A stretch of 64,000 nt of DNA from the IMG/VR virus record IMGVR_UViG_3300046820_003928, positions 62,001 to 126,000 of that record; one strand, 5' to 3'. Shown one piece after another: positions 39,497 to 58,138 of the stretch. Made by a program: the position numbers and the translations under genes. Each line of letters starts with the position of its first letter. The first letter of the stretch is position 1. The notes below the pieces were generated by a model. It worked only from the letters and a program-made list of their open reading frames with translations, was not told the DNA's origin and searched no databases. This DNA comes from a virus.

Positions 39497-40209
39497 TTAA
39501 GAAGTCCTAAAAATGCAACTGAGTCTGTTCCAAATTCTGAGGAATAGAGAGAAAACCCATGTGTCCCGATTGACTCAGTAGAGTCATAATCTCCCGTATC
39601 ATCTAGAATCATATTGAAATCATTCACAATCTCTCTATCTGTGAAAGGATCTGTTGTTATTTTTTTAGATCCATAGAACCCTTCTCTTGTTATTCCAAGA
39701 GATGATTCTCCGCCATCTAAGAATGAAAAAACTGAGATTCCAGAACTGATTCCCGATATGGTCTCATCAACAGCTTTTATGCCACGCGTTTTAAATGGAA
39801 TCTCTTCATTTACTACATATCCCCTGGCCCGAATGTCAAAGACTGTAATTCTTCCGTCTTTGTTTGCACCACCCTCATAGTCAATTGATTGACCCAGGAT
39901 AATCTCACCTGATTCCAAAACTGCAGTCAGTGACTTTCTTTCGTCAGCATCTGCGAACGGGACAATATCAAGTGGATCAATCAGTTCTCCAATTACAGAA
40001 GGAGAGATCTCTTGATCGATCAATCCATCATTTGACATCTCAGCCCACTTTCCTGACGATATGAAGAATGAATTTTCTCTCTTCTTTATGTCTCTCCCAT
40101 ACCGTATTTCAACGCCGTACCCTGTCTTCGAAGGAACAAATGCAGGTGTAGTTGTCCCAGGAGACGGTAGATCATTTCTAAATTGACCCTTGTCGTAAAA
40201 AGGCTTCAT
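39493..40209 (-). CDS. Uncharacterised baseplate-region protein, 238 residues
   Basis: Not recognised. It starts MKPFYDKGQFRNDLPSPGTT. It is acidic and beta-rich (IILGQSIDYEGGANKDGRI, VFDIRARGYVVNEEIPF), Gly/Ser-containing, and ends TDSVAFLGLLK. It overlaps both neighbours by 4 bases (the LamG-containing 1152-residue gene and the 931-residue gene), so it is translationally coupled to two giant tail proteins and may be a subunit or chaperone linking them. Confidence 0.65.
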   Translation of the reverse strand: MKPFYDKGQFRNDLPSPGTTTPAFVPSKTGYGVEIRYGRDIKKRENSFFISSGKWAEMSNDGLIDQEISPSVIGELIDPLDIVPFADADERKSLTAVLESGEIILGQSIDYEGGANKDGRITVFDIRARGYVVNEEIPFKTRGIKAVDETISGISSGISVFSFLDGGESSLGITREGFYGSKKITTDPFTDREIVNDFNMILDDTGDYDSTESIGTHGFSLYSSEFGTDSVAFLGLLK

Positions 40210-43200
40210 GGTCTAACCGTTGTAGTAAAAAAAACAATAGCCTCTACAGTTGTCCTGGAACTAGACTCAGCAGATCCAGGAGCAGACAGTATGAACATCT
40301 CTTCTGATCTATATCTAAGCTTTCCTCTCTCTATTAGATGCGGCTCAATTACATAATTTATTCCCAAGAATCTAGTTCGCTTAGGAAGAATTGATTCAAC
40401 AAGTTCTGTTAAAGCGACATCAACCCATCTAAAAACCTCATAGGTTCTCATTAGATCCATTTTTCCTGTGAGTCGATTGAAATAAACTCGAGAAAAATGA
40501 TCAAGGCCCGGGTATGTGTCAGAAAACATAAGTGCGGGATCTCCCATGACATTGTCTATGTACTGAGTATCTCCAATTGTCGATATGATATCTTCATTTA
40601 GGGCTTTTACTACGGAGTGTTCAATTGCAAATCTAACATCATCCACTATTTCATCTGTGTTGTAGATTTCATAGACTGGACCAGAAATTGTAAATTCAGG
40701 ATCTGTCTCACCTGGAACGCTAAGACCTCTTACACGCACCTTGTTTTCAGCTTGCTGAAGATCAAATCTCGGAGAAATCCTATTGATACTAATAAGATGA
40801 GGAACTACAATTGATTTTTCTGGCTTAAATCCGGATCCTGAGAGGTGAAGTCCATTTTGGCTAAAGTCAAAGATTCTAATGTTTCCCAGAGAATCAGAAA
40901 CTGTTGTCGCCTGGTCACACGAAGCGTCTATTCTTAGCCGCTCAAATGCACCTGTTTGAACTAGATCGAATCCTAGACCAATTTCTGGATTTTCAAGACC
41001 GATGCTATAGAAGTTTCTAGCGTGTTCAATAAATGACCTATCTCCGGTTTTTGCAGAGGAAAACCTAATTCCAGAAATTTTTCCTGTAAAGAGCGTTCCA
41101 ATGTAATCACTAAAGCCATTCAAGAATCTAGATGAAGAATCGATGCTTTGAGATCCGATTATGAAATAAGATCCTGATGAATTGTATGTCGACGTTTTTG
41201 TCGTGAATGCACTTGTATTGAGAGCCTGAGCGCAGTCTGAATAGAAAGATGAAGTTACAAAGAAGTCTGTGCTCTCTCCTGTCTGTCTTGCACATCTAAG
41301 CGTATAACTTGATGAAGTTGAACCAAAGATGTCCCCTCTTATCCTCTCAACTCCAAGTGTCCATCTTTCTCCATCAAACAAATTCAATCCCGGGATTGAT
41401 AAGACCAGCGGGCTTGGTGCGATTGTACCTGGCTCCTGTGAGGGCCTTGCTGCAAAAACAACGGATCCGGTCTCTTCTCCTTCTTGTCTGTAGAAAAGGT
41501 TTCCAACTAAAAAGTTTGAAGGTGAAGCGCTTCCTGTTGTTAGTATTCTAAAAATGCTCTGTGTAACTGGATGAGAGACATTTTTATCAAAAACAACAGA
41601 TGCTTCGAGAGAAAACGATCCGGATGTTAGGAGGCCATCGCTAGGATTATTTGATATTCCATGCGGAGGAAAACTGGATTTGTTAACAAATGTTCCTGCA
41701 GGATCTGGATATCCAATTTCTATTCTTGATGCACTTAAAAATGGGCTGATTATTCTTGGAGAGTCTTTTCGAACTCCAGGAGAAACAAAGGAACCTGTTG
41801 CATTTGTTCCAGATGGAAATTGAATCATGGAAGAGACCTCAAAGGCATAGTCTCTTAGATCTGCAATTCTAGCCTCACCAGAATTTCCGAATTCTCTGAT
41901 CACAAAGAAGTTCTCTGGAATAATTCCTGAGGATAGGAATATGGATCTTACTGCTGATTTTGTTCCCTTGGACGTGTTAACATAGGTCATATTTGCAAGA
42001 ACCCTTCTCCAGAGATCATCTCTGAGTGCTCGAAGAGTGGTATTGAAATAGCTATCCTCTAGAACGTTCTCGCCAAATGAAAATTGATCTGATGTTGACT
42101 TGGCAAAGAAATTTGGAAGATCTAATCCAAAATAATCAGCAGCAAATCTTATCATTTGGCTGCTGATCTTATCTTCACTTCCGAGTTCAACAGAAAGAAG
42201 TGTTGACATACTATCAATAAACTGCTTTATCTCATCGAGAGATATCGACATGATAATCAGAGATTTTAGAAGAGCAGAGGTATCAGGCATCTCTCCTGTA
42301 CCGGGAACACTAATGAGACTTGGAGTAACTCCAATTCCTGCATCATATTTTGAGAGACCAGATGCCCTTGCACTGTCCTCAAGATAGTGTGAAGGTATAA
42401 GGTTTGTCACAATGTTAGGATTTTGATCATCATAATCTGAGGCGCTAGAGATAAGGCTTGAAATGTTAGAAGAGAAAGATGAAAAATCAGGATAAAGAAC
42501 TGGACTGTAATATGGATTCTGTCTAACAAGGGGAACTTCAATTGATGAAGTTATCTTAAGACTGCTCGTAAAATTTGAAATCCTAGAATGAAGACATTTT
42601 CCTGAATAATCAAGAACAACGTCTTTCATGCTGAAATTGCCAAAGGGCTCATCTAGCCTAAAATAGACAGATAGACCATCTTGTGCAAATATTTGCTGGT
42701 CTTTTCCTTGCTCAATCTCTGCCTGTGTCCGCTCCTTTGTGAAAAATCTAAATTCATCAATAGCACCACTCAGTGTTTGTACAGGCAAGAAATCATAATC
42801 AAGAATCTGATGATAAGATCCGCTTCCAATTACGAGGCTTGATGTGTCAAATTCCAAAGATTCAAAATTCTGAATATCTGAAGATGATCCGATCAATTTT
42901 TCATTGACATAGATGAACGATCTTTTTCCATCTTCATCATTGAAAAGACAGGCTCTAACATGAGAGAAACCTCCCTTTTCTATTGTTCCAGAGGCAATTA
43001 CATATGAATCTGATGCTGAGGAGACAAGGAAAAGAACCGTGCAGTCTGTAGTCGAAGAAGACTCTGATAGTGCGAGTGTAAATCCAGCTTCATTTTGCAG
43101 TCTTTGCACAATTACCTGATTGTCATTTGAAATCTCTGGTATGTGAAGATGCATCTCTATTTCAAATGGACTGCTATTGATTAGAAGAGCATTTTCTGCA

Positions 43201-43664
43201 CTTGCACCTGGGGCTTCTGGAAAATCTTTTCCAGATATTGGAGACACAGAGATTGAAGTTCCTCCAGATGTCTCTCCTACCTGAGTTCCAGAGAAAAAAA
43301 GATATCCTATATTCCTTGGGATAGAATCAAAGACATGCTTCTCAAAACCAGTCAATCCTGTGATGAATCTGTTGATGTCTTTTATTGTTCCGGAGAAGGG
43401 ATATTCATTGATTGATTTAAAAAGAGCTACATCGACCTTTGCTCTTGCTGGTGAAAAAAATGTGTGATTTTCAAACTTTGAAAAATCAAGAGAGAGCTGC
43501 TGTGTTGATTTGAATCCACCCTTGAAAGAGTCTAGTAAAAAATTTTCATCACTTGAATCTTTACCAAGAGAAGCATTTGATACACTTCTTTTGACAGCAT
43601 TTGTAGTCGTCTGCTGCTTCTTTGATCTAAAGAGTGGAGGTCTGTTTCTAAGCCTGGGCATCAT
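40206..43664 (-). CDS. Giant baseplate protein with two LamG domains
   Basis: An 1152-residue virion protein. Residues 165-335 form a first LamG sandwich (FEIEMHLHIPEISND, TIEKGGFSHVRACLFNDEDG, FIYVNEKLIGSS, SGAIDEFRFFTKERTQAEIE). About residues 665-890 form a second (GSFSLEASVVFDKNV, ERWTLGVERIRGD, SYFIIGSQSIDSSS, GKISGIRFSSAKTGD). Between them lies a helical core with LRALRDDLWRRVLANMTYVN then SKGTKSAVRSIFLSSGI, the kind of block found in wedge proteins of contractile tails. The C-terminus has FRWVDVALTELVESILPKRT, then FLGINYVIEPHLIERGKL. Position after the gp6-like gene suggests a gp7-like wedge subunit with added glycan-binding modules, with moderate support only. Confidence 0.72.
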   Translation of the reverse strand: MMPRLRNRPPLFRSKKQQTTTNAVKRSVSNASLGKDSSDENFLLDSFKGGFKSTQQLSLDFSKFENHTFFSPARAKVDVALFKSINEYPFSGTIKDINRFITGLTGFEKHVFDSIPRNIGYLFFSGTQVGETSGGTSISVSPISGKDFPEAPGASAENALLINSSPFEIEMHLHIPEISNDNQVIVQRLQNEAGFTLALSESSSTTDCTVLFLVSSASDSYVIASGTIEKGGFSHVRACLFNDEDGKRSFIYVNEKLIGSSSDIQNFESLEFDTSSLVIGSGSYHQILDYDFLPVQTLSGAIDEFRFFTKERTQAEIEQGKDQQIFAQDGLSVYFRLDEPFGNFSMKDVVLDYSGKCLHSRISNFTSSLKITSSIEVPLVRQNPYYSPVLYPDFSSFSSNISSLISSASDYDDQNPNIVTNLIPSHYLEDSARASGLSKYDAGIGVTPSLISVPGTGEMPDTSALLKSLIIMSISLDEIKQFIDSMSTLLSVELGSEDKISSQMIRFAADYFGLDLPNFFAKSTSDQFSFGENVLEDSYFNTTLRALRDDLWRRVLANMTYVNTSKGTKSAVRSIFLSSGIIPENFFVIREFGNSGEARIADLRDYAFEVSSMIQFPSGTNATGSFVSPGVRKDSPRIISPFLSASRIEIGYPDPAGTFVNKSSFPPHGISNNPSDGLLTSGSFSLEASVVFDKNVSHPVTQSIFRILTTGSASPSNFLVGNLFYRQEGEETGSVVFAARPSQEPGTIAPSPLVLSIPGLNLFDGERWTLGVERIRGDIFGSTSSSYTLRCARQTGESTDFFVTSSFYSDCAQALNTSAFTTKTSTYNSSGSYFIIGSQSIDSSSRFLNGFSDYIGTLFTGKISGIRFSSAKTGDRSFIEHARNFYSIGLENPEIGLGFDLVQTGAFERLRIDASCDQATTVSDSLGNIRIFDFSQNGLHLSGSGFKPEKSIVVPHLISINRISPRFDLQQAENKVRVRGLSVPGETDPEFTISGPVYEIYNTDEIVDDVRFAIEHSVVKALNEDIISTIGDTQYIDNVMGDPALMFSDTYPGLDHFSRVYFNRLTGKMDLMRTYEVFRWVDVALTELVESILPKRTRFLGINYVIEPHLIERGKLRYRSEEMFILSAPGSAESSSRTTVEAIVFFTTTVRP

Positions 43665-45189: not shown

Positions 45190-47040
45190 CTAGATAGCAT
45201 TTCCAACGATGTCAAAATCAGGATATTTCACTTCAAAAATACCGCCCAGAGGAGGAGAAATGACGCCCCTTCTTATTGAAGTACTTGGATTTATAGAAAA
45301 GATAGAGTATGATCTGTCATCAATATCTCCTGACAGACTTGTAAAAGTGTAGCTTTCCAAGTTTATAACTCCATCTTGATTGAGAACAAGGTTAATGATG
45401 TCAGATATCTGTATTCCGCCATCAATTTGCATATTGACTAGAGAAAGATACTCAATTATGGAATTATTGATCCTTGTAATAATTCCAGACTTATCTTCTC
45501 TTGGATCAATTGAGACGTTATAGTTGAATCCAATGTTAACTATCTTTGCATCAAGGATATCAAAAGCGTCAGAGATAACTCTGAACTCATTTAGATAGGT
45601 TGAAATATTTCTCTTTAGTGTATCAGGAGATTGTGTGAGATTTCCATTTGCATCCCTGCTAACTACATAAAGAAGGGAAGAAAGAGGATTAACAGGATTT
45701 GGCTGTATTCCAACCCTAAATGCCCTTCCAAAATTTGTAGGCATCAAAAAGACCCGTGCAATAAGGTCTTCTTTTGAAACAACTCTATTTTGAGAATTTC
45801 TAACGCTCAATGCAACTGATCTTAGTTCTTCGATTGTTGGGGCATTTTCTCCACCCTGTGCTGCACTTTCATTATTGACAGATATGCTGGCTCTTATTGT
45901 TGATGATTTTGATGGGGATATTGCGGGGTTGAATTTTGTCACAAGGTTGCTTACGACTCTAATTGTTCCCGGAGATACGTTGTGAGATATTCCTCCTCCA
46001 TTTCTATATCTAACCCTTATTGAGGTATTGATAGGAGTAACTCCAAGGCTCTTTGATCCAAGCATCGAATTGGGATCTATTGCAACTCTTGTAAAAGTCT
46101 TCTTGTCACCAAAAAGAGGTAGAGATACCTCGCTAGGATCAGGAAGAATATCATTGTCAAGAGTATCTGATCTTCCAGATCCAAACACGATTGTTGCAAT
46201 TCCCGTATCTGAGTCTGATCTGGTTATAAACCTATACGGAGCAGGAACAACTGCGATTGCATTTTCAACCTGGGAAGAGTCTGAGTTGTAGTTTTCGATA
46301 GACTTGAATGCAGTATCTTGGGCTAGAGAGTCTACCTCATAGTATTCATTTCCTTCGCTATCTACAACAAGAACGATATCGCTAACATTTGGCTTAGATA
46401 ATGTAATTGTCTTGAATGGAGTAGGATCAGATCCAAACGTAAAAGTTTCCTCAGAAACCTCTCCTGATTCACAAATTCCTATTCTTGTAACTGTGAAGGA
46501 GGTGGGATTTCCAGATGAATCTGTTGTGTTTGTAACATAGGTGCAAACTAGGTTTCCAAACTCATCTCTTTCAGCAAAATCAACATCGCTCCTAAGAGAA
46601 AAGGATATTCCTGTATTAGAAGAAACTCTTGTTCCGGCCCTTAAGATGGGAAGCTGAGATGTATTTGGGATATATCCGTTTGATCCAAGGGACGCATCAA
46701 CTGTAAAAGAAAAACTAATATCGGCATATGCAGGAGAAGCTCCCCTGATCTTTACGCCTGCAAGTCTAACAAGCCTCTCAACATTTCTTCTCTCAACTGC
46801 TGTATCAAGTCCCATCTCATTAAACTGATGGTCCATGTAAAAGGCAGTAGAATCTCCCACGTATGCAACTAGATCAACAAGCATTCCTCCCACAGATGCT
46901 TCTGAGAAATCCTGAATCTGATCCGGGAAGTAGAGTTTTGCATATTTTAGGAGCTCAGATCTGAATCCTTCGAAATCTCTTGCTAGATAATTTCTCTGTC
47001 TCTTCTGAGTTAGATTCTTTTTTACGTTTGTAAGTGACAT
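45190..47040 (-). CDS. 6: Baseplate wedge protein, gp6/J-like
   Basis: A 616-residue protein of the baseplate J/gp6 family. The N-terminus has NYLARDFEGFRSELLKYAKL then DFSEASVGGMLVDLVAYVGD and TAFYMDHQFNEMGLDTAVER (residues 17-80), the diagnostic opening of T4-type gp6. Central beta domains follow (PILRAGTRVSSNTGISF). The C-terminus has NAPTIEELRSVALSVRNSQN, VVSKEDLIARV and a late segment ISDIINLVLNQDGVINL, typical of J-like wedge proteins. It forms the ring that holds the baseplate hub and drives the conformational switch. It starts 3 bases after the gp25-like gene ends, the same neighbour as in many contractile systems. Confidence 0.92.
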   Translation of the reverse strand: MSLTNVKKNLTQKRQRNYLARDFEGFRSELLKYAKLYFPDQIQDFSEASVGGMLVDLVAYVGDSTAFYMDHQFNEMGLDTAVERRNVERLVRLAGVKIRGASPAYADISFSFTVDASLGSNGYIPNTSQLPILRAGTRVSSNTGISFSLRSDVDFAERDEFGNLVCTYVTNTTDSSGNPTSFTVTRIGICESGEVSEETFTFGSDPTPFKTITLSKPNVSDIVLVVDSEGNEYYEVDSLAQDTAFKSIENYNSDSSQVENAIAVVPAPYRFITRSDSDTGIATIVFGSGRSDTLDNDILPDPSEVSLPLFGDKKTFTRVAIDPNSMLGSKSLGVTPINTSIRVRYRNGGGISHNVSPGTIRVVSNLVTKFNPAISPSKSSTIRASISVNNESAAQGGENAPTIEELRSVALSVRNSQNRVVSKEDLIARVFLMPTNFGRAFRVGIQPNPVNPLSSLLYVVSRDANGNLTQSPDTLKRNISTYLNEFRVISDAFDILDAKIVNIGFNYNVSIDPREDKSGIITRINNSIIEYLSLVNMQIDGGIQISDIINLVLNQDGVINLESYTFTSLSGDIDDRSYSIFSINPSTSIRRGVISPPLGGIFEVKYPDFDIVGNAI

Positions 47041-47043
47041 CTT

Positions 47044-47514
47044 TTATCCAATGTTCGATAGGATGATCTCGACAGTTTTTTCAGCAGTTGAAAGTCTGGG
47101 AATTGAAAACTTTATAAGAATTCTCATCCTTGAAGTTCCATTCCTTTCACTTTCAATAGGCTGGGCATCAAAAGATCCCAGGCTAATATAGGGCATGTAC
47201 TTCTCTGTTGTTGCCTTGATGAACATCATAGCTTGTTCATCGTAGTCTGGCTGTGACAACCTTTCTGTTAGTAGGTATCTAAGATTTCCTCCGAAGTCGT
47301 AGAGGGGTAATCTTTCTCCGTGATTAACAAGTAGCATGTTCTTGAAGTTATCAACCATCTGATCGAGAACAGAGGTTGACATTTCAAACGGACCTCCCAC
47401 TTTTGTCTTTGATCTTACCGGTGTTAATATTCCAACAGGAAGAGGCTGGGGAGCCTGAACACTCCTGGGATTATCCTTTAGATCTCCAACGCTCTTAAAG
47501 CTTATTGCTGCCAT
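47044..47514 (-). CDS. 25: Baseplate wedge protein, gp25/GPW-like
   Basis: A 156-residue protein of the gp25 family, present in all contractile-tail machines. The core motif is clear: VDNFKNMLLVNHGERLPLYD then FGGNLRYLL (residues 53-82), including the conserved Gly-Glu-Arg, followed by FIKATTEKYMPYISLGSFDA and a C-terminal strand MRILIKFSIP. A Pro-rich N-terminal extension (about 25 residues) is longer than in T4 gp25 (132 residues). gp25 nucleates sheath assembly and binds gp6. No good Shine-Dalgarno precedes the ATG. The 43-base gap upstream has TCTAAATA (47524-47531), similar to a late -10 box. Confidence 0.9.
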   Translation of the reverse strand: MAAISFKSVGDLKDNPRSVQAPQPLPVGILTPVRSKTKVGGPFEMSTSVLDQMVDNFKNMLLVNHGERLPLYDFGGNLRYLLTERLSQPDYDEQAMMFIKATTEKYMPYISLGSFDAQPIESERNGTSRMRILIKFSIPRLSTAEKTVEIILSNIG

Positions 47515-47557: not shown

Positions 47558-48655
47558 CTAGATAATTTCTAGAATTTTGGCTGCAGCCAGAGAGATCAAT
47601 CCGGACCCTAGAAGAAATCCAATAAGAGAGACTATGAAACACTTTGCAAAGAAAAAGATGACATTCAAAAATGAAGATATCTCTAAAAAGGCAGTTGAAG
47701 CTATTCCTATAACAGGGCTCAAAAGAGACCACACAAAATCGGTAATTGATGAAAATAGATCGGAAACTGCCTCTTGCACATTTGTCAAAAGCTTTCCAAT
47801 TGCACTTGATATTTTTTGAATAGCTGCGGAAGCAGCCTGTGCTGCACCAGATATGGCAGAAGATACAGCTTCTATAATCTCAGACGGGATTGATAGAAAA
47901 ACTGTCATAGCTTTGATAAATTTTGTACCAATACCGTCAATTCCATTAGATTCAATTGTTGCAAAAAGAGGAGAAATATCTAGCCTTGGGTCAATAAAAG
48001 AAGTATCAAGAACTGGAACAGGAAGATCGGGAACAATGCCTGAAACGGACTCCGCAGCCTCCTCTATGATCTGGGTTGCAAGATTTTCTATTTCTGATTT
48101 TCTTTCTTCTAGCTTTTGAACTACAGGGTCGGGATTGATTCCGGCAGACCTAAATGCCTCTGCTATTGTATTGGACAGAGAATTAAAGAACTCCGCTGTG
48201 TTTCCGACATCTATTGCAGCGCTAATATCAGCTGCATTTTTTATAACGACGTCAATTTGAGAAATTAGGACATCAACTACGGGAACACCTATGCTCGATT
48301 CAATCGAAGATAGAGTTTCCTGTAATTCTGTGATTATTGTTGCGACAGGCTTTGTTGGGTCAAAAATTGGGACAGTTTTAAGAATTCCAACATCAGGAAT
48401 TGAATCAACAAGAACGCCTATGTTTTGAATGTATCCATTAACATAGACTCCGTGCCATGCTGGGTAGTCCTCTTGAATAACTCCAATGGAATCAGTCTTA
48501 AAGTCCCCCATGCCTATTGAGTCCGGAGGAAGATTTATGCTCCCAAGTGAAATTCCTTCTTTGAGAGTTTTAACAACGTTGTCCCGATATCTGGTAGCAG
48601 CTATTTGAGTAATTTTACCGTCAGATACAACTCCAACTGTAGCAAGAGTTCCCAT
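47558..48655 (-). CDS. Baseplate-region protein with hydrophobic C-terminus
   Basis: A 365-residue protein of unknown family. Residues 1-100 are beta-rich (DSIGMGDFKTDSIGVI, YPAWHGVYVNGYIQNIG). Residues 105-300 are amphipathic helices with low charge (LEERKSEIENLATQIIEEA, FIKAMTVFLSIPSEIIEAV, AISGAAQAASAAIQKISSAI). Residues 306-365 are strongly hydrophobic, with two or three potential membrane helices (FLNVIFFFAKCF, IVSLIGFLLGSGLISL). Phage structural proteins rarely end this way. Placed between the spike and gp25-like genes, it may be a hub or tail-tip protein that enters the host membrane, or a tape-measure-like protein. This is inference. Confidence 0.7.
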   Translation of the reverse strand: MGTLATVGVVSDGKITQIAATRYRDNVVKTLKEGISLGSINLPPDSIGMGDFKTDSIGVIQEDYPAWHGVYVNGYIQNIGVLVDSIPDVGILKTVPIFDPTKPVATIITELQETLSSIESSIGVPVVDVLISQIDVVIKNAADISAAIDVGNTAEFFNSLSNTIAEAFRSAGINPDPVVQKLEERKSEIENLATQIIEEAAESVSGIVPDLPVPVLDTSFIDPRLDISPLFATIESNGIDGIGTKFIKAMTVFLSIPSEIIEAVSSAISGAAQAASAAIQKISSAIGKLLTNVQEAVSDLFSSITDFVWSLLSPVIGIASTAFLEISSFLNVIFFFAKCFIVSLIGFLLGSGLISLAAAKILEII

Positions 48656-48661
48656 AAATCT

Positions 48662-49759
48662 CTACACCTTGACCAGAATCTTAGTTGCAAAAACTCCTGT
48701 TGCTGGGACTCCTTCTACACCCAGAACTCCGCCTGCTGTGTCAACGATGGGTGTCCCTACGACAGTTCCACCAGCATTTAGGGCAGTTTGACAAGCAAGA
48801 ATTGCCCCTGTTGCATCATCCCCACCCAGCTTGATTACTCCTGTCAAAGAAGGGGTAACAACAATGTCTCCATTACTTTTTATGATGATACTAGACGGAT
48901 CGGATCCTTCTCCTACAACAATTTTAAGATCATTTTTTGCAATAATTCTCACACTATCAGACTTTAGGGATATTGAAGGTTGCGAACCGCTGTCATCTCC
49001 GGGAAGAGAATAATATGAATCAGAGTTAAAAGAACGAGAAACAGTAATCCTGGACTCATCGTCAGGACTTAGATTTCCCAATTCAGGAGTGTTGTCTTCT
49101 CTTAGCGGAGGCTTAAGAGAAGTTTCATTTCTTGAATTTAGAATTTTTCTACCGGATTCTGCAGTAGAAATTCCTGCAACCAGGTCTACAGTTCCTGTTC
49201 CTTTTTCTCCTAGATTTCTGAGAATTATTGCAGATCCATTCGATCCCTGCAGAAGAAGATCTAGAGATGTCTTTGAAACCGGGAAGACAGCCTCTCCTAC
49301 AAATTCACTCTTTGAAATTGCGTCATCTCGAACGCCCTGAAGAGAAACTCCAGCTGAATTTGCATCAAAGATTATGCCAGAAGCTTTCTCTCTTGCATCG
49401 GGCTCATTTCCCAAAGCCAAGAAAAGTCGAGCATTATCGTCATTTGTAAAGTTTAGATCTTCAGCAGATGAATTCTGTACCTTCCTAGACATCCAATAGG
49501 AAACTCTTGAATTTCCAGGCTCAAATATCCAGGCTCTCTCTCCTGACTTAATTGGAAAGCTTATGTGAGAGAAAAATGGAAAGTATACTCTTTTCTGGAG
49601 ATCTGAATCTTTGCCAATCTTCACACCAATAATTGTGCCATTTGGACAATTGGATAGAAAATTTACCCCGACTACATCTTTTGAAATCTTTTGAATCTGT
49701 TCGCTAGTTAGCTTGCTATAGTCTGCGATGTAGTCAACGACAAGAACTTCCTGGAACAC
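48662..49759 (-). CDS. Baseplate spike protein, gp5/gpV-like
   Basis: A 365-residue central spike candidate. The start is GTG 49759, preceded by GAGGA at a spacing of about 6. The N-terminal OB-fold region shows GTIIGVKIGKDSD, VYFPFFSHISFPIKSGERAW then IFEPG (about residues 40-85), the layout of spike proteins from contractile tails. The C-terminal region is repetitive and beta-helix-like (SISLKSDSVRIIAKND, LKIVVGEGSDPSSIIIKSNG, DIVVTPSLTGVIKLGGDDAT), as in gp5/VgrG needles. No lysozyme domain is visible, unlike T4 gp5. The gene lies between the coiled-coil protein and the membrane-ended protein, before gp25 and gp6 counterparts. Confidence 0.78.
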   Translation of the reverse strand: MFQEVLVVDYIADYSKLTSEQIQKISKDVVGVNFLSNCPNGTIIGVKIGKDSDLQKRVYFPFFSHISFPIKSGERAWIFEPGNSRVSYWMSRKVQNSSAEDLNFTNDDNARLFLALGNEPDAREKASGIIFDANSAGVSLQGVRDDAISKSEFVGEAVFPVSKTSLDLLLQGSNGSAIILRNLGEKGTGTVDLVAGISTAESGRKILNSRNETSLKPPLREDNTPELGNLSPDDESRITVSRSFNSDSYYSLPGDDSGSQPSISLKSDSVRIIAKNDLKIVVGEGSDPSSIIIKSNGDIVVTPSLTGVIKLGGDDATGAILACQTALNAGGTVVGTPIVDTAGGVLGVEGVPATGVFATKILVKV

Positions 49760-49760
49760 G

Positions 49761-50141
49761 TTAGTCCTCAGAGATTTGGTAAAATATTGAATCTGTGTCG
49801 AGAGGCCTATTTTCTTCCTTGGTTATAATCTCAGCAAGCTTTATAATCTGATCGTTGGCTCGAGACATTCTCTCGATATATTTCACAACAATGGGACCAA
49901 GAATGCTATGGTTTGCAGCATTTCCCTTTATTTGCATGATGGTATCAGTAAATAGAATTGAGGCGCTCTCTCTATCTGTTAGAGCATTTCTATAGATCTC
50001 AGACCATAGGATTCTCTTTTTATTATCAAGTCCCTCAATTGAATTTAGCAGATCATCGAACTGTGCAACTTTGGACTCTTTTCTTTTAAGATCTCCCAGC
50101 TTATCATTGAGATCTTCGATGTCTGCTTCCTTCTTTGCCAT
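49761..50141 (-). CDS. Small coiled-coil protein upstream of the spike gene
   Basis: A 126-residue all-helical protein from ATG 50141. An in-frame GTG at 50174 would overlap the sigma-factor gene. AGGAAGG lies just before the ATG, which decides the start. A coiled coil (KKEADIEDLNDKLGDLKRKE, residues 3-22) and a second helical region (IERMSRANDQIIKLAEIITK) are visible. It sits between the late sigma factor and the baseplate spike genes. It may be an assembly chaperone or a sigma cofactor. No family is recognised. Confidence 0.65.
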   Translation of the reverse strand: MAKKEADIEDLNDKLGDLKRKESKVAQFDDLLNSIEGLDNKKRILWSEIYRNALTDRESASILFTDTIMQIKGNAANHSILGPIVVKYIERMSRANDQIIKLAEIITKEENRPLDTDSIFYQISED

Positions 50142-50154
50142 TTTCCTTCCTAGA

Positions 50155-50874
50155 TTAGAATATGTCGAACTCACACTCTTTCATAGTTTCTCTATAGTGC
50201 TTCTTGATAGCGGACATTGCAGTTGAAATCTGCTTTGTATTAAGATTCGTCATTTCTCTGATGTAGACAAAAATTGCTCGCTTATTAAAGAAATCAATGT
50301 CATCAATGTTCTGGAATATCTTGACAATTGCTTCCATGCATATTCTTTCATTTTCCTGTGAAACTCTGTCAGATATTTCAAAAAATAGCATATCAAGTTG
50401 TTCCGTCTGAGCTGACTTCTTACCACCTTCTCCGTACAGCTCAAAAGATGCTTCAACCGTGTTTAAAACATCAAGCTCTGGAACAATTGCCTTGTCATCA
50501 ATGTTGAAATGTCTCTTTGCGTACTTGATCTTCTGTCTCATTCTCATGATGATCCAGTTTTTGGCAACAACATTAAAATAAGAAAATGCCTTGCTACCTC
50601 TGGATGCATCAAATTTCTTCAGCTTCTCATAAAGAAAGCTGATGCAGTCACTTTTAAACTCTTCAACTGAAACATGTGTGTTTGCACTATGAATGAAGAT
50701 TAGATTTTCAACTAACTTTGTGAAAGCAGGAAGAATCTCAGATGTATAAATTAGATTTCTTGCTTCAATGTCATCCTCTTGCTGGAATTTTACGATAGCA
50801 TCGTGTGTCCCAGAATGGAAATACATCTTTAGGTCGTTTTTCTTGGGAGATCCCGTTTTTCTAGTCTTCTTCAT
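50155..50874 (-). CDS. 55: Late-gene sigma factor, T4 gp55-like
   Basis: A 239-residue protein from ATG 50874, preceded by GGGAG at 8 bases; an upstream TTG at 50910 is less likely. Residues 66-125 carry a sigma region 2-like block: VSVEEFKSDCISFLYEKLKK, then FDASRGSKAFSYFNVVAKNW and a basic helix IMRMRQKIKYAKRHF. This is the core-binding and -10-recognition pattern of the divergent sigma factors of T4-type phages. The C-terminus (NTKQISTAMSAIKKHYRE) looks like a helix-turn-helix remnant. It is longer than T4 gp55 (185). It should direct host RNA polymerase to late promoters with a TATAAATA-type box. Confidence 0.8.
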   Translation of the reverse strand: MKKTRKTGSPKKNDLKMYFHSGTHDAIVKFQQEDDIEARNLIYTSEILPAFTKLVENLIFIHSANTHVSVEEFKSDCISFLYEKLKKFDASRGSKAFSYFNVVAKNWIIMRMRQKIKYAKRHFNIDDKAIVPELDVLNTVEASFELYGEGGKKSAQTEQLDMLFFEISDRVSQENERICMEAIVKIFQNIDDIDFFNKRAIFVYIREMTNLNTKQISTAMSAIKKHYRETMKECEFDIF

Positions 50875-51148
50875 TCTTCGATCTCCCAAACTGGGAAAGA
50901 TTGTTTGCAATTGAAAGAAGAAGATCTTGACTTGACTTTATTTCTTGGATTACCTGTCTCACTTCTACAGAATCAAAAAATACGGGTTTTTCCAGGATTT
51001 TGGCAAAAATTCCATATTTTTCATCGAGTCTGTCAAGACCTTCTTCGATAGCATCGACACAATTCAAAATAATTATTCCAAATTTTATGTTGAAATAAAT
51101 AGAGACAACAAGAAGAACAAAAAAGACAAGAGATAAAATCTCAAACAT
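50861..51148 (-). CDS. Small membrane-anchored protein
   Basis: A 95-residue protein with an N-terminal transmembrane segment (EILSLVFFVLLVVSIYFNI, residues 3-21) continuing into further hydrophobic residues, and a soluble helical C-terminal domain (residues 30-90, FFDSVEVRQVIQEIKSSQDL). It overlaps the glycosyltransferase gene by 8 bases and the sigma factor gene by 14 bases. A role in the host membrane (for example lysis control or anchoring) is possible. No family is recognised. The gene is small, but the overlaps fit the local style. Confidence 0.6.
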   Translation of the reverse strand: MFEILSLVFFVLLVVSIYFNIKFGIIILNCVDAIEEGLDRLDEKYGIFAKILEKPVFFDSVEVRQVIQEIKSSQDLLLSIANNLSQFGRSKNEED

Positions 51149-52301
51149 CTTTTAGTATCTGCGAGAATACGTCATTGTAGATTTTAAGAATGGAATTCTT
51201 TGAGAACTTCTCAAGACATTTACTCTTAAGATCTTTTGCCCATTCTGCAGGCATTTGACTTGATTCTCTAAATTTTTTAATCTTCTTTTTGAAATCTTCT
51301 TCTCTAGGTTTTGCCCACTTGGATCCCTTGATAAAGATTCTTTCATCTGCTCTTGAATCTGAGATCTCTACTAGGTCTGACTCTATCTTAATCCATTTTC
51401 CAAGATTCAAAAACTCAGTATGGGCAGACCAGTTTGTAGCGATAACTGGAAGACCAGATGCTGCTGCTTCAAGTAGGGGTAGACCGAAGCCTTCTCCTCT
51501 TGTTAGACTTACAAGTGCACGAATAGATTTGTCTCTGTAAAGACTTGCAATCTCTTCATTTGTCATGCATCCATGAACAAAATAAACTGGGACTTTGCTT
51601 TCTCCTCTTGTCTGGGAGATGACTCGATTTAAAACTTGCTCTGTAAGAGATCTATCTATGGTTGTTCCACGACCGCTATTTGTCTTTAGGACGATTCCAA
51701 CATCTTTGTCTGCTTTAAAAGTTTCGAAGATCCACTTCAGTGTATTTGCAATGTTCTTTCTATCGTGTTCTGGATCAGCTGCTGTAAGCTGACTTACAAT
51801 TAAAAAGTTGAAATTTGTTCTTGTAGTTATATCAGCTATTTTTGAATCACTTTCAATTTCTTCAATAAACCACTCAGGAACAACAAAGATAGGCTTTTCA
51901 ACTTTTCCAGTATTCAAAAGAACGTCTTTTGTGAACTGAGAGGGTACAATAATGGCATCCATCTTGTTGCACTTCTCAATCCAGGCAGGGTTGCACTTGT
52001 CTGTCTCAACAGCTGCAGTTACACCCACGTTTATTTTTGCGAGGGTGTCTGACCATTCATCAGGAAGCTGCACCTGGAAGGAAACATCAAAACCGCTCTG
52101 TCTATCTGTTGAGCGCTTCATGATTTCACCAGAAAGTCCGCCTTCTTCCTCTGGATTAATCATCCAAGATGTATTTCCCCACTGGACAACTTGAGAAAAT
52201 ACATTTGCGTCAGGTATTCTCTTTACTGCTTCAAATAGCTGTCTGCTATGATGTCCATACCCGGAGATGCTCAACAAGGGAGCCCGAACTACTATCTCCA
52301 T
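51141..52301 (-). CDS. Glycosyltransferase, GT4 family
   Basis: A 386-residue GT-B fold enzyme from ATG 52301, which overlaps the upstream stop codon (TGATG) and has AAGGAG 5 bases before it. The C-terminal donor-binding motif TRGEGFGLPLLEAAASGLPV (about residues 270-289) with IATNWSAHTEF is the E-x7-E pattern of retaining GT4 enzymes. Just before it lies VYFVHGCMTNEEIASLYRD, the nucleotide-sugar site region. Donor and acceptor are unknown; GDP-mannose-type donors fit the neighbouring dehydratase. It is coupled to the second GT4 gene and closes the glycan block. Confidence 0.87.
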   Translation of the reverse strand: MEIVVRAPLLSISGYGHHSRQLFEAVKRIPDANVFSQVVQWGNTSWMINPEEEGGLSGEIMKRSTDRQSGFDVSFQVQLPDEWSDTLAKINVGVTAAVETDKCNPAWIEKCNKMDAIIVPSQFTKDVLLNTGKVEKPIFVVPEWFIEEIESDSKIADITTRTNFNFLIVSQLTAADPEHDRKNIANTLKWIFETFKADKDVGIVLKTNSGRGTTIDRSLTEQVLNRVISQTRGESKVPVYFVHGCMTNEEIASLYRDKSIRALVSLTRGEGFGLPLLEAAASGLPVIATNWSAHTEFLNLGKWIKIESDLVEISDSRADERIFIKGSKWAKPREEDFKKKIKKFRESSQMPAEWAKDLKSKCLEKFSKNSILKIYNDVFSQILKDV

Positions 52302-53542
52302 CACATCTCCTTCACGGTGAATGTCTTTCTTTTTGTCTTCCAACTATCTACAAGATTACTTGCTGTGCTATGCCAATCGTCTATCGTCTTATTGAATGAA
52401 AACTCAGATCTTGCATAGTCAAAGACCTTCTTTCGAAGATTCTCTTTCTCAGAGTCTGATAGATTAAACATCTTCATGATTGCTCGAGAAGTGTTCTCTG
52501 TAGAAACATAGTCTTCATAGATGTATGGAACTCCTTGAGATCCAACCATCACCTTCATATCAATGTCCAGGGCGACGCCATTGTGAGACCCATCCCTATG
52601 ATCGACTGCCTGTCTCGTTAGACCGCCCGTCTTTGCTGCGATGATGGGTACACCTGCATTCATTGCCTCAAGCGTGGCAAGACCAAAGCCCTCTGCAAAA
52701 CTGATGTTGAGACATACATCAGAAATATTGTATAGGATGTTCATCTTGTCGAATCCTAACCGCTCTCTTGAAAAGACGACATTTGATGAAATCCCAAAAT
52801 GATCACACACGGCATAAAGATTTGGCCCCTCTTGATCGAGGGGATCAGTATGCATAATCAGGGTGGCTCTCTGGTGACCTTTCTCTCTCTTCAGATCATC
52901 AAGAAAAATCTTCCATGACTCAATGACGTCACTTGGTCTCTTTCTTCTTGCATTTCTATTAACCCAGATTGCAACAAAATCATCAGCTCTATTGTGTCCA
53001 AGGAGAGAAGACTTATGCATCTTCTTCTCTTGCATAGAGATTGGATAGAAAAGATCTGGAGGAAGAGAATGAGGAATAAAGTTTGTCTTATCTGGAAACT
53101 TATCTTTCAACATTGAATATGTTGCGTAAGAATGACAGTTGATAAGATCTGTCGCCTCATAGAGTGGAGCATTAAATGCCGGATAGGGTAGATTATCCCA
53201 GACATGCCACCACGCAATGGGACAAACCTGATGAATCTCATCCTCCATCTCAAACAGCCAAATAAAGAATCTTGGGTCTGTAAAGATTAACAGAAGATCG
53301 GGCTTCTCTGTGGCAAGTGTCACTCGAAGAAGATCTCTGTTTCCAAATCCATCGATGGGCTTGATGATAAAATCATCATTGACAACAACTGTTCGATAGT
53401 CTGTGTGCTTCATTGCAGCACCAAACTGCCTAAATGTCCATCCGCCCTTCTGGAGAAGTCCATTTACCAGGTGACGTGTTTGAGTTCCAACTCCGGAAGT
53501 TGAAAGAGCGTGATCAGATAGAATTAGTACTTTCTTTTTCAT
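52301..53542 (-). CDS. Glycosyltransferase, GT4 family
   Basis: A 413-residue GT-B enzyme. The N-terminal Rossmann start VLILSDHALSTSGVGTQTRH shows the Gly-rich acceptor-side loop. The C-terminal domain has FAEGFGLATLEAMNAGVPII then AAKTGGLTRQAVD (about residues 283-315), the E-x7-E pattern of retaining GT4 enzymes. A central basic segment (VNRNARRKRPSDVIESWKIF) marks the nucleotide-binding part. It ends in the TGATG overlap with the next GT4 gene, so they are made together, perhaps adding successive sugars. Substrates cannot be read from the sequence. Confidence 0.87.
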   Translation of the reverse strand: MKKKVLILSDHALSTSGVGTQTRHLVNGLLQKGGWTFRQFGAAMKHTDYRTVVVNDDFIIKPIDGFGNRDLLRVTLATEKPDLLLIFTDPRFFIWLFEMEDEIHQVCPIAWWHVWDNLPYPAFNAPLYEATDLINCHSYATYSMLKDKFPDKTNFIPHSLPPDLFYPISMQEKKMHKSSLLGHNRADDFVAIWVNRNARRKRPSDVIESWKIFLDDLKREKGHQRATLIMHTDPLDQEGPNLYAVCDHFGISSNVVFSRERLGFDKMNILYNISDVCLNISFAEGFGLATLEAMNAGVPIIAAKTGGLTRQAVDHRDGSHNGVALDIDMKVMVGSQGVPYIYEDYVSTENTSRAIMKMFNLSDSEKENLRKKVFDYARSEFSFNKTIDDWHSTASNLVDSWKTKRKTFTVKEM

Positions 53543-53565
53543 GTCTATTTATCTAAAGATAGTGA

Positions 53566-54381
53566 CTATTTACCAGGCGTAAATGCTGAAAATTCAGAGG
53601 ATCCTGGACAATGATCTGTTCCTTTGAATTCACAGTATGTGCAAGACATTCTGTTCTTAATTACCTTTCCAGACTGGACGCTTGTTATCATCGAAGTAAC
53701 AAGCTTGTTTGCATTCTCGAGAGTTTTGGGACCGACAGAGATATCGATTAGTTCACAAGCCTTTCCTGGCTTTGTACCCCGCTTTAAAAGAACAAAGCCG
53801 CACTTAATTTCTTTGGGATCTATCTCAAACTTCTGGCTTGTGTAATACTTGTAGAGTGCAAGCTGCGCCTGAACTAGGAAATCTCTTCGCTTATCAGCAT
53901 TCCACCCTCTTGCAGACGTCGTCTTCCAGTCAATGAGCCAGAGACGATCTTGTCCTCTTTTATTCTTGGCCTTGATCATTCCGTCAATAAATCCCTTGAA
54001 CTTGACGCTATGACCTTCAACAGACTCATACAATGCATGCTCAGATGAAATACACTCCCACCCTGGAAAGTTTTCTTCAAGAAATTGCGGTATCTCTTCG
54101 ATTATTTGCTTTGCTTCTTTGACCCAGGGATCAGGATTTCCAAATCCTTTTTTCTCCCATCCTGTTCGAATATTCTCTTCAAGTCTCTCAAGATTGAAGG
54201 TTCGAGACTTTAGAAAATCCTCACACTCAAGATGGACGTGTGTTCCAAAGTCGATGTTAGGGCTTGGCTTGAACATGTCAATTTTGTCAATATAGACAAG
54301 CCTATGACGCCAAGAGCATTCTTTCCAAGCCCTAACCTCAGAATATGAAACGTGTGGTTTACCAGTTGGGAATGTAGTCAC
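53566..54381 (-). CDS. Cas4/RecB-family exonuclease with iron-sulfur cysteines
   Basis: A 271-residue PD-(D/E)XK nuclease. The start is GTG 54381. Catalytic residues are visible in order: H48 (FGTHVHLE), D133 (KGFIDGMI), D151 and K153 (LIDWKTTS), then Q171 and Y177 (VQAQLALYKYY). C22 and the C-terminal trio C247, C250 and C258 match the four-cysteine 4Fe-4S arrangement of Cas4 and AddB nucleases. No CRISPR array or cas1 lies nearby, so it is a stand-alone phage exonuclease, probably for end processing in recombination or for host DNA breakdown. It is oddly placed between the sugar dehydratase and a glycosyltransferase. Confidence 0.88.
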   Translation of the reverse strand: MTTFPTGKPHVSYSEVRAWKECSWRHRLVYIDKIDMFKPSPNIDFGTHVHLECEDFLKSRTFNLERLEENIRTGWEKKGFGNPDPWVKEAKQIIEEIPQFLEENFPGWECISSEHALYESVEGHSVKFKGFIDGMIKAKNKRGQDRLWLIDWKTTSARGWNADKRRDFLVQAQLALYKYYTSQKFEIDPKEIKCGFVLLKRGTKPGKACELIDISVGPKTLENANKLVTSMITSVQSGKVIKNRMSCTYCEFKGTDHCPGSSEFSAFTPGK

Positions 54382-54417
54382 AACCTAAAAATAATCAAAA
54401 ATTTAAACTTTTACAAG

Positions 54418-55383
54418 CTAAATGACCTCTTTCCAATAGTCGACCATTTCCTTGATCATTGTTTCAAAAGTATAAGTCGGTTCCCAGCCTAGAACTCTTC
54501 TTGCCTTTTCTGAGTCTCCACACAGATAGTTCAATTCCTCGGGTCTTTTGAATTTGTCATCTTGCACAACAAAATCACGATAATCCATTCCAAGATGCTC
54601 AAAAGTAACCTTGCAAAGATCTCTAACAGATTGAGTTTTTCCTGTTGCCACAACAAAATCATCAGCAACATTGTGATTCACTATAAGATTCATTGCCTTA
54701 ACGTAATCTTTTGAATGTCCCCAGTCTCGATATGAATCTAAATTTCCTAAAACAAGCTTGTCTGCCTGTCCTTTAGAAATCTGGACTGCAGTTTTTACGA
54801 CTTTATTTGTAACAAAATTCGAACCTCTTCTAGGAGACTCGTGATTGAAAAGAATTCCATTGCAAGCGTGTAAACCATAGGCATGACGATAATGTCTAAC
54901 AAGATTAAAACCTAAAAGTTTTGCGCAGCCATATGGGCTAACTGGTTTCATTTGTGTATTCTCATTTTGAGAACCGTTTGATTCTACACTATTACCAAAC
55001 ATCTCAGAAGATGAAGCTTGATAGAATTTTGCATTAGGAGAAATGTTTCTATATGCCTCTAGAGCATTTAGAACACCTACGGCGTTTGTCTGAATGGTGA
55101 ATGCAGGCATATCAAAGCTAATTCTAACATGACTCATTGCGCCCAGGTTATAGATCTCATCTGGCATAACATCGCCAAAAATTCTATTAATTGAAAATGG
55201 ATCCAGCAAATCACCATAATGTGTGACTATCTTTCCCACAAGATGCTTGATTCTTGCATCTTGATTTTCTGCAACTGAATGTCTACGAACTATTCCATGA
55301 ACTTCGTATCCTTTCTCGATCAAATGCTCAGCAAGATAGCTTCCATCCTGCCCAGAGATTCCTGTTATAAGAGCTTTTTTCAC
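54418..55383 (-). CDS. gmd: GDP-mannose 4,6-dehydratase
   Basis: A 321-residue short-chain dehydrogenase that turns GDP-mannose into GDP-4-keto-6-deoxymannose, the precursor of GDP-fucose, GDP-rhamnose and GDP-perosamine. The NADP-binding loop TGISGQDGSYLAEHL (7-21) and RRHS (34-37) are typical of Gmd. The catalytic set is ASSSEMFG and YGCAKLLG (Tyr-x3-Lys). The Gmd-specific segment NHESPRRGSNFVTNKV and DLDSYRDWG-like LGNLDSYRDWGHSKDYV are also present. Length matches the family. The precursor could feed the neighbouring DegT-type aminotransferase (perosamine route) and fucosyltransferases. GDP-fucose synthase is not found in the window. Confidence 0.95.
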   Translation of the reverse strand: MKKALITGISGQDGSYLAEHLIEKGYEVHGIVRRHSVAENQDARIKHLVGKIVTHYGDLLDPFSINRIFGDVMPDEIYNLGAMSHVRISFDMPAFTIQTNAVGVLNALEAYRNISPNAKFYQASSSEMFGNSVESNGSQNENTQMKPVSPYGCAKLLGFNLVRHYRHAYGLHACNGILFNHESPRRGSNFVTNKVVKTAVQISKGQADKLVLGNLDSYRDWGHSKDYVKAMNLIVNHNVADDFVVATGKTQSVRDLCKVTFEHLGMDYRDFVVQDDKFKRPEELNYLCGDSEKARRVLGWEPTYTFETMIKEMVDYWKEVI

Positions 55384-56112
55384 TTATTCTCCAAAAATTG
55401 TTAGATCTGAGAGCTTTGTGTAATTGTAAGATCCCCCAGAATCCTCGTTCACTGTTGGAACTTGATCCATAAGAAGAATGCCGCGAGCTGCATCTTCGGG
55501 TGTCATGTACATATGATAACCTAGAATTCTAACATGACCATCATTGGTGTAAGGAGTTGTTAGATCTCTACCGTCATAAGAAGCAAGTTTTAGCCACCTT
55601 GCTGCTTCTTCATCATTTGTTAGAATAATTCCACCTTTTCCAATCGGGACTCGCTTTTTAAGCTGGAAGGATACCACTTGTAATGCATCTTCTCCCACAA
55701 ACATTCCTTGTGTCCACCTAACGGCTGCATCCCAGATTCTTGTTCCTTCTAGCTGGTAGAGTCCACTCCACTCTAGATCTTTAAATTTCACTGCAAGACC
55801 TGCATGCTTGATTTGCATAGGTACAGAGACATATGTTCGATCTGGAATTGTAATGATACTATTATCGTCTAGTTCACCTTTGTACTGGAGAAACTTAAGA
55901 GATAGAAATAGACCGTGGGAGCAACAATCTGTCGTAATTGCATATTTTGCTCCTGCAAAGTCAGCTACTTTTTTCTCAAAAATATCCACTACATCTCGAG
56001 GATCTTTCCATTCATATCCATGACTCTTGATGGTTTCTAGTTCATGTCTTTGGAACTCTTTGGGAAGTTTACCAAGAGGCCAACTATTATATTGATACTT
56101 GCTTTTTTCCAT
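55384..56112 (-). CDS. Short DegT/DnrJ/EryC1-type sugar aminotransferase-like protein
   Basis: A 242-residue PLP-enzyme-like protein from ATG 56112; an upstream TTG at 56148 is less likely. The family layout is visible: FEKKVADFAGAKYAITTDCC, IITIPDRTYVSVPMQIKHAG, the PLP-ring aspartate in RIWDAAVRW (D128), and the Schiff-base lysine region VVSFQLKKRVPIGKGG (K152 or K153) followed by IILTND. It is about 100-130 residues shorter than normal family members, stopping soon after the small-domain start. It may be a minimal or non-catalytic form. Next to gmd it would fit GDP-perosamine synthesis, as an inference. Confidence 0.7.
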   Translation of the reverse strand: MEKSKYQYNSWPLGKLPKEFQRHELETIKSHGYEWKDPRDVVDIFEKKVADFAGAKYAITTDCCSHGLFLSLKFLQYKGELDDNSIITIPDRTYVSVPMQIKHAGLAVKFKDLEWSGLYQLEGTRIWDAAVRWTQGMFVGEDALQVVSFQLKKRVPIGKGGIILTNDEEAARWLKLASYDGRDLTTPYTNDGHVRILGYHMYMTPEDAARGILLMDQVPTVNEDSGGSYNYTKLSDLTIFGE

Positions 56113-56791
56113 GTTGATCACACTCAATAATATCGTGAAATTCTTCAATGATTAAATGAATTGCACTTTGACCTAGATGAATATCATCCATAATGTATTT
56201 CTGGTCTGTCAATCCATTAGAGAGAATCATTTTTTTTGTGATGTCCCTGTATAGGACATATTCATTATCACATTCTTTTCTTAAAATTTCATTAAAAAGA
56301 AGCGTCATTTTATTTCTAGTTAAAACATTTCCATAGCCAGGAGCGTCTGCTGAGGCGATTGGTCCATAGACTCCGAGTTTAGGATGTATAGTTTTTACAG
56401 ATCTAATCGTATTCAAATAGTTTTCAATACAGGTCTTAATAGTTTTTTCGTAAGATTCTGAATTTCTATCCGCAATATAGCCTATGTGGTGCCTAATATC
56501 AATTTCACCAAAAGATAAAAAGACATAGTTGTTTTGAGTTATTTTGTATTGTTCAATAACTTCTTTGATTTTTTCTATCTTTGTATAAGAATTAAATGCT
56601 GTGTGAGCACCTATTCTAACAGCACAAAAATATGGAATTTTTTGTTCAAAACGATTCACTTTTTCTTTTATTTGGCCTTCTTTCAGAGTATAGCAAGATC
56701 CAAATTCTGGCTGCATGTGTCTCAATCCATCATGAGTCTTGTCAGCTCCTGAGAAAACAGAAACATGACTATCACCTATTAAATAAATCAT
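56087..56791 (-). CDS. SGNH/GDSL hydrolase-like protein
   Basis: A 234-residue protein. The N-terminal IGDSHVSVF gives the nucleophile Ser (S8) of the SGNH fold. LSFGEIDIRHHIGY lies where the block with Gly and Asn is expected, but Asn is replaced by acidic residues. DDIHLGQSAIH near the C-terminus supplies the Asp-x2-His dyad. It could remove or transfer acyl groups on glycans, as similar proteins in polysaccharide clusters do. It overlaps both neighbours (25 and 20 bases). Base composition is AT-rich, like the following four genes. Confidence 0.7.
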   Translation of the reverse strand: MIYLIGDSHVSVFSGADKTHDGLRHMQPEFGSCYTLKEGQIKEKVNRFEQKIPYFCAVRIGAHTAFNSYTKIEKIKEVIEQYKITQNNYVFLSFGEIDIRHHIGYIADRNSESYEKTIKTCIENYLNTIRSVKTIHPKLGVYGPIASADAPGYGNVLTRNKMTLLFNEILRKECDNEYVLYRDITKKMILSNGLTDQKYIMDDIHLGQSAIHLIIEEFHDIIECDQHGKKQVSI

Positions 56792-58129: not shown

Positions 58130-58138
58130 CTATTTCAC

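Follow-up and report, generated by a model that had tools for sequence, protein, structure and literature searches.

Once the outer membrane and peptidoglycan have been punctured, how contractile-tailed phages come to open the inner membrane is, to our knowledge, poorly understood. The gene considered here is encoded directly behind a probable central spike in a window of 64,000 nucleotides, which spans positions 62001-126000 of a virus record 140,420 bases long. The open reading frame (ORF) at 47558..48655 was confirmed to be real, with exact positions, on the minus strand, which the original prediction had not given. It encoded a protein of 365 aa (P0001), called the spike-partner protein on the basis of its homologues and family profiles. 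With moderate confidence, we propose from sequence comparisons that this protein belongs to a family of central-spike partners in environmental contractile-tailed phages, as one of its short members without an enzyme domain, and that its hydrophobic glycine-rich C-terminus would act on the envelope.

The partner gene was located in a minus-strand run formed by the probable spike gene (48662..49759), the partner gene itself, a gp25-like gene (47044..47514) as its downstream neighbour and a gp6-like baseplate wedge gene (45190..47040). The spike gene was upstream of the partner gene and the gap between them was 6 nt. The wedge protein matched PHROG 219 (E 2.3e-19) and PHROG 6 (E 1.8e-17; baseplate wedge subunit). 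The gp25-like protein had no PHROG or Pfam match and was assigned by its position before gp6 and by 26% identity (E 1e-8, a single comparison) to the protein annotated for baseplate assembly in Flavobacterium phage immuto. For terminase and capsid, the top named phages were Microcystis phage Mel-JY01 and immuto (best 12 of 2791 and 2500), and Rhodothermus phage RM378 was also among the top named phages for the capsid only (best 12 of 2500). These named phages are far relatives of T4.

Several tail-sheath-like genes were seen by eye in a row (L091 14734-20000 and L092 1-651, record ~54.7-60.7 kb), the first of which matched a PHROG tail sheath with E 3.9e-60. Positions 40206-43664 of the window encoded a protein of 1152 aa in the baseplate region that contained a laminin-G-like domain (Pfam E 3.3e-9), and the tail genes were followed by a sugar-related cluster (51141-63451) with glycosyltransferase- and epimerase/dehydratase-like genes, as judged by eye. 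The 137-aa and 251-aa genes preceding the spike (49761-50910) were conserved together with it. The 251-aa gene showed a weak resemblance to sigma-70 region 2 (Pfam E 0.05) and may encode a T4 gp55-like late sigma factor. Further upstream, at 50861-51148, lay an ORF of 95 aa whose N-terminus was strongly hydrophobic; its position was kept in many relatives.

The original prediction had placed the protein beside a spike gene. The gene located 6 nt away was modeled as an OB fold followed by a beta-rich part and resembled central spikes with Z values of 5-6.7: 6.7 for the phiKZ spike, 6.5 for the S. coelicolor injection system, 6.1 for Mu, 6.0 for PVC, 5.9 for P2 gpV and 5.3 for T4 gp5. This fold comparison was suggestive only, as unrelated OB folds scored up to Z 6.8 in the same comparison; the gene probably encodes the central spike. 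The mean pLDDT of the model was 60.9, with about 80 for the first 90 residues, and no PDB match was returned by Foldseek at E <= 0.001. A tblastn search of cultured phage records gave no homologue of the spike. No match to PAAR (PF05488) was obtained at E <= 1 across the 140,420-base record, partner protein included.

The spikes preceding the partner protein were found to end in a distinctive tip of ~85 residues (IKLGGDDA...TAGG.LG...KILVK), which was delimited by alignment A6, a scan and co-occurrence and which occupied 48665..48928 of the window on the minus strand. When the tip alone was used as a query against public viral contigs, 76 loci were obtained. The next ORF was a family member by profile at 66 of these (50 short and 16 long forms), with the N-domain and C-module profiles having been built from the same next ORFs; after the removal of near-copies the count was 50/57. 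The C-module profile matched the next ORF at 51/76 tip loci, and 50 of those ORFs were short forms. The partner was not the next ORF at the other ten loci (7/57 after dereplication): a gp25-like ORF came next, by eye, in L115, L116, L125, L127, L133 and L136, a 76-aa ORF came next in L131 and L132, and the remaining misses were L183 and L164. In the loci that were collected by gp6, matches at E <= 1e-3 to the profiles of the tip, the N-domain and the C-module fell together in 7 loci, 4 of them distinct, and no ORF elsewhere was matched, apart from a contig fragment (L017) with the C-module only.

The partner was absent behind all 15 compared spikes with other tips. The tip changed 7 times in a tree of 69 spike bodies constructed with the tip excluded, and the partner changed along with the tip in 3/3 independent contrasts on supported branches, a number too small for significance (sign test p 0.25). 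The spike of L019 carried the same tip though its gp6 fell outside the supported clade of the window; the gp6 tree (23 rows) needed 2 changes and was compatible with one origin. At 56/66 loci, the distance from the stop of the spike gene to the start of the partner gene was -4 to +6 nt. Such tight spacing alone is weak evidence, because genes in phage operons often overlap. Overall, the partnership between the spike tip and the partner protein was well supported by these sequence comparisons.

Since other relatives had no gene in that slot or had different genes in it, the partner gene was not considered a universal tail part. Two large records in which the likely tape measure has a relative, G007 (160 kb) and G010 (171 kb), gave no match to the close-family profile, and none of their baseplate-locus ORFs matched the wider N-domain profile. 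Different hydrophobic Pro-rich proteins may occupy the pre-gp25 slot behind spikes with other tips (L010 6335-6883, 182 aa; L022 6299-6793, 164 aa). In Mel-JY01 (L095 7933-8964), the slot behind a spike-like gene, recognized by eye, was held by an annotated putative chitinase, another wall-cutting candidate. Distant relatives (L031-L075) had an ORF of 1,700-2,500 aa before gp25 (24 compared), and one tested stretch was without a match in cultured phage records. Homology of the partner protein to these large ORFs found no support: the 24 tested gave an hhalign probability of 2.6 and a best hmmsearch E of 0.05.

The close family was collected by a gp6 scan of viral contigs (best 80 of 105) and by profile scans. 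Close homologues were encoded at the equivalent place in L003 and L004 (54-56% identity), L085 and L086 (42-44%), L097 (40%), and L006 and L008 (37%), while L019 and L016 encoded a more distant 433-aa protein with a common C-terminus (hhalign probability 94.6, E 7.3e-8). In the 365-aa protein, an N-terminal domain with YPAWH...FDPT motifs (residues ~1-110; 48326..48655, minus strand) was found by profile comparison to be common to short and long members. It was followed by a predicted helical body (residues ~102-201; 48053..48352, minus strand) and by a conserved Pro-rich/PLFAT...DGI.TKF.K stretch (residues 209-257; 47885..48031, minus strand), which was defined by invariant columns in alignments A2 and A5. 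The structure prediction proposed earlier as a check was obtained with AlphaFold2, but the model was poor (mean pLDDT 46), with the best blocks (78-81) at residues 151-190. An amphipathic helical body had been described for this protein; residues ~102-200 and ~258-312 fit that description in the low-confidence model, whereas residues 1-110 were recognized as a separate conserved domain.

Family members were divided into short forms (38 representatives, 299-438 aa) and long forms (16 loci, 14 distinct, 517-840 aa), the long ones sharing the N-terminal domain and continuing in additional sequence at the C-terminus. The N-terminal profiles of the two groups matched each other with an hhalign probability of 98.7 (E 1.7e-16), and the 365-aa protein was recovered by a profile made from long forms alone (E 3e-5). 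In cross-tests, the short-form N-profile found 12/14 long N-termini at E <= 0.003, the best of 172 controls being 0.85, and the long-form N-profile found 25/38 short N-termini at E <= 0.008, with a best control of 0.67. The N-terminal pattern [YF][PQK]x[WFY][HYN] was present in 12/14 long forms and 1/172 control ORFs; as it occurred in only 10/38 short forms, profiles were used for the family calls instead.

The C-terminal module of the 365-aa protein comprised residues 308-361 (47573..47734, minus strand) by hydropathy and by the C-module profile, which was built from this protein and 37 other short forms. The last 60 residues were as hydrophobic as originally predicted: their mean Kyte−Doolittle value of 1.71 was matched by 3/2000 shuffles of the same protein. 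The protein also ranked first in tail-60 mean and in best window among 126 ORFs of >=100 aa in the 140-kb record, which was read as six overlap-filtered pieces, so that a few ORFs were counted twice at piece overlaps; the 95-aa ORF with the hydrophobic N-terminus fell below the 100-aa cut. The tail-60 means were 1.29-1.73 in the four close homologues tested and 1.52 in the distant L019 protein. The best 19-residue window (residues 332-350) reached 2.43, a peak that alone constitutes no evidence, because it was equalled in 554/2000 composition shuffles. Two or three membrane spans had been suggested, and only one strong segment (332-350) and one borderline segment (308-326, 1.59) were seen. An invariant lysine of the close family (Lys338) was situated inside the strong segment, and no helical face of invariant residues was detected (p 0.40 and 0.93).

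All 38 short representatives terminated in a hydrophobic segment with the motif hhGxG, and both glycines of the final G-x-G were invariant in 38/38. This motif was picked after the sequences had been inspected and was counted in family members only; it corresponded to residues 348-352 of the 365-aa protein and was positioned 12-17 residues from the C-terminus in 36/38 short forms. The strict GxxxGxG was present in 29/38 representatives, and a stricter first motif, [KRE]x8-14[GSA]xxx[GS]xG, in 23/38, missing the 365-aa protein. In the latter, a G-x3-G-x-G motif, GFLLGSG, was found at residues 346-352 (47600..47620, minus strand), which provides a GxxxG element, as in glycine-zipper cargo, within the hydrophobic segment. 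The C-terminal 19-residue maxima of the 38 short forms were 1.85-2.85 (median 2.32), and charged residues occurred inside the segment. Of the control ORFs of 250-450 aa from the same loci, 1/90 had an equally hydrophobic C-terminus. One hydrophobic segment with a glycine motif would fit, though not require, a membrane action of the short form such as the pore first suggested.

Among the long forms, the C-terminal domains of L166 and L172 matched a solved lytic transglycosidase with E 9.2e-22 and 1.5e-9, respectively, so that at least two long forms carry a domain that resembles a lytic transglycosylase. Searches with the other long-form C-terminal parts gave no match, and support was confined to L166 and L172; by eye, those other parts had the look of Cys/His or HETG-type hydrolases. 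Among 26 family members, Pfam returned two matches at E <= 0.01, one each to BRE and HNH_5. Because at least two long relatives have the transglycosylase-like domain, the family was placed at the envelope-breaching end of the tail. Together with the inheritance of the gene along with the tip of the neighbouring spike, this lends strong, indirect support to the earlier suggestion of a tail-tip component.

An internal hydrophobic stretch with a similar glycine motif, followed by extra sequence, was found in 11/14 long forms (9/14 by pattern; L159 and L176 by profile). The C-module profile matched L159 with E 1.1e-5 and L176 with 6e-4, and its matches to the rest were weak or none; the alignments of the short and long C-modules did not match significantly (hhalign E 0.86). 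The highest 19-residue peaks between residues 100 and 420 of the 14 long forms were 1.12-1.90. Because the long forms lack a stretch as hydrophobic as that of the short forms (1.12-1.90 versus 1.85-2.85), the G-x-G motif could just as well serve for docking or packing.

The partner family had few points of contact with databases. No homologue of the 365-aa protein or of its relatives L019, L129, L163, L158 and L141 was found by tblastn in cultured phage records, pattern scans that reached close relatives found none in prokaryote genome contigs, and relatives have so far been found by these searches in environmental phages only. PHROGs, Pfam and NCBIfam gave the 365-aa protein no family name, and Pfam, NCBIfam and the PDB gave no convincing relative. 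A match to Baculo_PEP_C (E 5.9e-5) was below its cut-off and was taken as chance, as was replication factor A (E 0.0055), the best PDB match of the N-domain profile; other best matches of the 365-aa protein were hflC (E 0.021) and a PDB entry at 0.36. No description of such a spike-tip partner was found in the titles, abstract openings and passages of an open literature library, and the family is apparently undescribed so far.

That the protein is a tape measure, setting tail length, or a derivative of one is very improbable. It matched several tape-measure PHROGs (best E 6.4e-7), and 5/7 close homologues matched phrog_1272 (best E 1.5e-10, a value with no reversed-sequence counterpart for that homologue). 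The reversed 365-aa sequence matched the same kind of families with a best E of 2.6e-6, a control made on this protein only. As it scored about alike, the matches of the 365-aa protein look compositional. A 579-aa gene of the same record is likely the better tape-measure candidate by its position and variable length: its neighbours were the gene for the tube protein (PHROG E 5.8e-28) and one for a hub protein (3.1e-18), and three large relatives had homologous open frames, 744, 810 and 1319 aa long (E 1.1e-65, 8.4e-17 and 2.1e-8, respectively). The hub gene was again beside the homologue, by eye, in the two relatives with a readable neighbourhood, and two of the three large relatives had no match to the partner family. 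No profile names the 579-aa gene, so its assignment rests on position. With the reversed-sequence match and this candidate beside the tube gene, the 365-aa protein was set aside as a tape measure. The original prediction would have been contradicted by homologues that are soluble tape-measure or chaperone proteins; these did not appear. A spike-tip assembly factor, that is a chaperone or membrane-anchored scaffold that keeps the trimeric spike in place during baseplate assembly, possibly at the inner membrane, and is missing from the virion, would also produce tip co-occurrence, tight gene spacing and a hydrophobic segment. We regard it as unlikely, since the lytic transglycosylase-like domain of at least two long relatives fits delivery better.

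A virion role with no membrane action is somewhat unlikely in our judgement. The hydrophobic G-x-G segment would then be the part that packs against or inside the tip of the spike, or a trimer core, with the short form acting as a purely structural cap; the absence of a detectable PAAR cap in the record, the less hydrophobic version of the motif inside most long forms and the charges within the segment, including a conserved internal one, are in keeping with such a cap. The short forms are, however, far more hydrophobic (median maximum 2.32) than simple packing requires. A lysis gene in the baseplate operon, either a holin or, for the long forms, membrane-tethered endolysins, is hardly credible. 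It would account for the hydrophobic C-terminus and for the peptidoglycan-hydrolase-like domain of some relatives, but the partner gene is linked to the spike tip, and the hydrophobic element comes after a conserved N-terminal domain, unlike in known tethered endolysins, which have an N-terminal signal anchor.

The reading of the protein as an envelope-acting spike partner is therefore retained at the moderate confidence given above. The protein probably helps the tail to breach the bacterial envelope, because it is co-inherited with the spike tip and its relatives have at their C-terminus either a hydrophobic glycine-rich segment or an added domain, which in some is hydrolase-like. We infer both its location in the virion and its membrane insertion from sequence. 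The N-terminal domain, or the body, would dock onto the spike tip at baseplate assembly, and the partner would be carried in the virion at the front of the tail. Sheath contraction would drive it into the envelope ahead of the tube. There the hydrophobic glycine-rich C-terminus of the short form may insert into the membrane or destabilise it, probably with several copies acting together, and the long relatives may cut peptidoglycan at that same step. A wider model is offered tentatively: phage spikes may have an exchangeable payload slot of a non-PAAR kind, in which a docking domain of ~110 residues reads the matching tip and carries either a peptidoglycan hydrolase or a membrane-assembling glycine-rich segment that opens the way for the tube, tip and payload being swapped together.

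Known contractile systems provide partial parallels. The type VI secretion effector Tde1 is described as needing a GxxxG glycine zipper to permeabilise the target cytoplasmic membrane (PMC10240207). As a contractile injection spike cargo with such an element it may serve as a model for membrane action, with no kinship claimed. The Tde1 zipper is N-terminal, repeated, accompanied by a DNase and adaptor-dependent in that account (PMC10240207), whereas the motif of the partner protein is single, C-terminal in short forms and linked to the spike tip. The prePAAR transmembrane effectors are likewise spike-associated and are described as joining a part for docking to hydrophobic segments and an effector that can be exchanged (PMC7773334); here there was no PAAR profile match in the record, and sequence searches with the N-domain gave no convincing relative of solved structure. 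In actinobacterial contractile systems, the Sle1-type effectors are presented as helical proteins that a contractile particle ejects and for which a transmembrane hairpin is predicted at the C-terminus, but with a large N-terminal coiled coil and tape-measure kinship, and a spike-tip tie is not reported in the parts of the source consulted (PMC13277306).

In T4, the gp5 cell-puncturing device couples a central spike to peptidoglycan cutting, the lysozyme being a domain of the spike itself according to the excerpts used (PMC3004832). In the long-form relatives a hydrolase-like domain instead belongs to a protein of its own, whose gene follows that of the spike; the short form here lacks such a domain. 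T4 gp28, outlined in the same excerpts as a hypothetical 17-kDa needle-tip protein once proposed as the gp5 needle cap, is likened to the partner by description only (PMC3004832). Diffocin is also a contractile particle that pairs a peptidoglycan hydrolase with a membrane-entering component, but there these functions belong to a hub-hydrolase and to a tape measure for which transmembrane helices are predicted, rather than to a partner of the spike tip (PMC10996793). Insertion of hydrophobic segments has also been proposed for the T5 tape measure, as far as the available text of that report goes (PMC10038345).

A family ending in either a wall-cutting domain or a hydrophobic glycine-rich segment would make this passage of contractile-tailed phages through the envelope directly testable. 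It would name proteins that are without annotation in the family libraries searched here (PHROGs, Pfam and NCBIfam), and it would have a counterpart in the way type VI secretion spikes are loaded with cargo.
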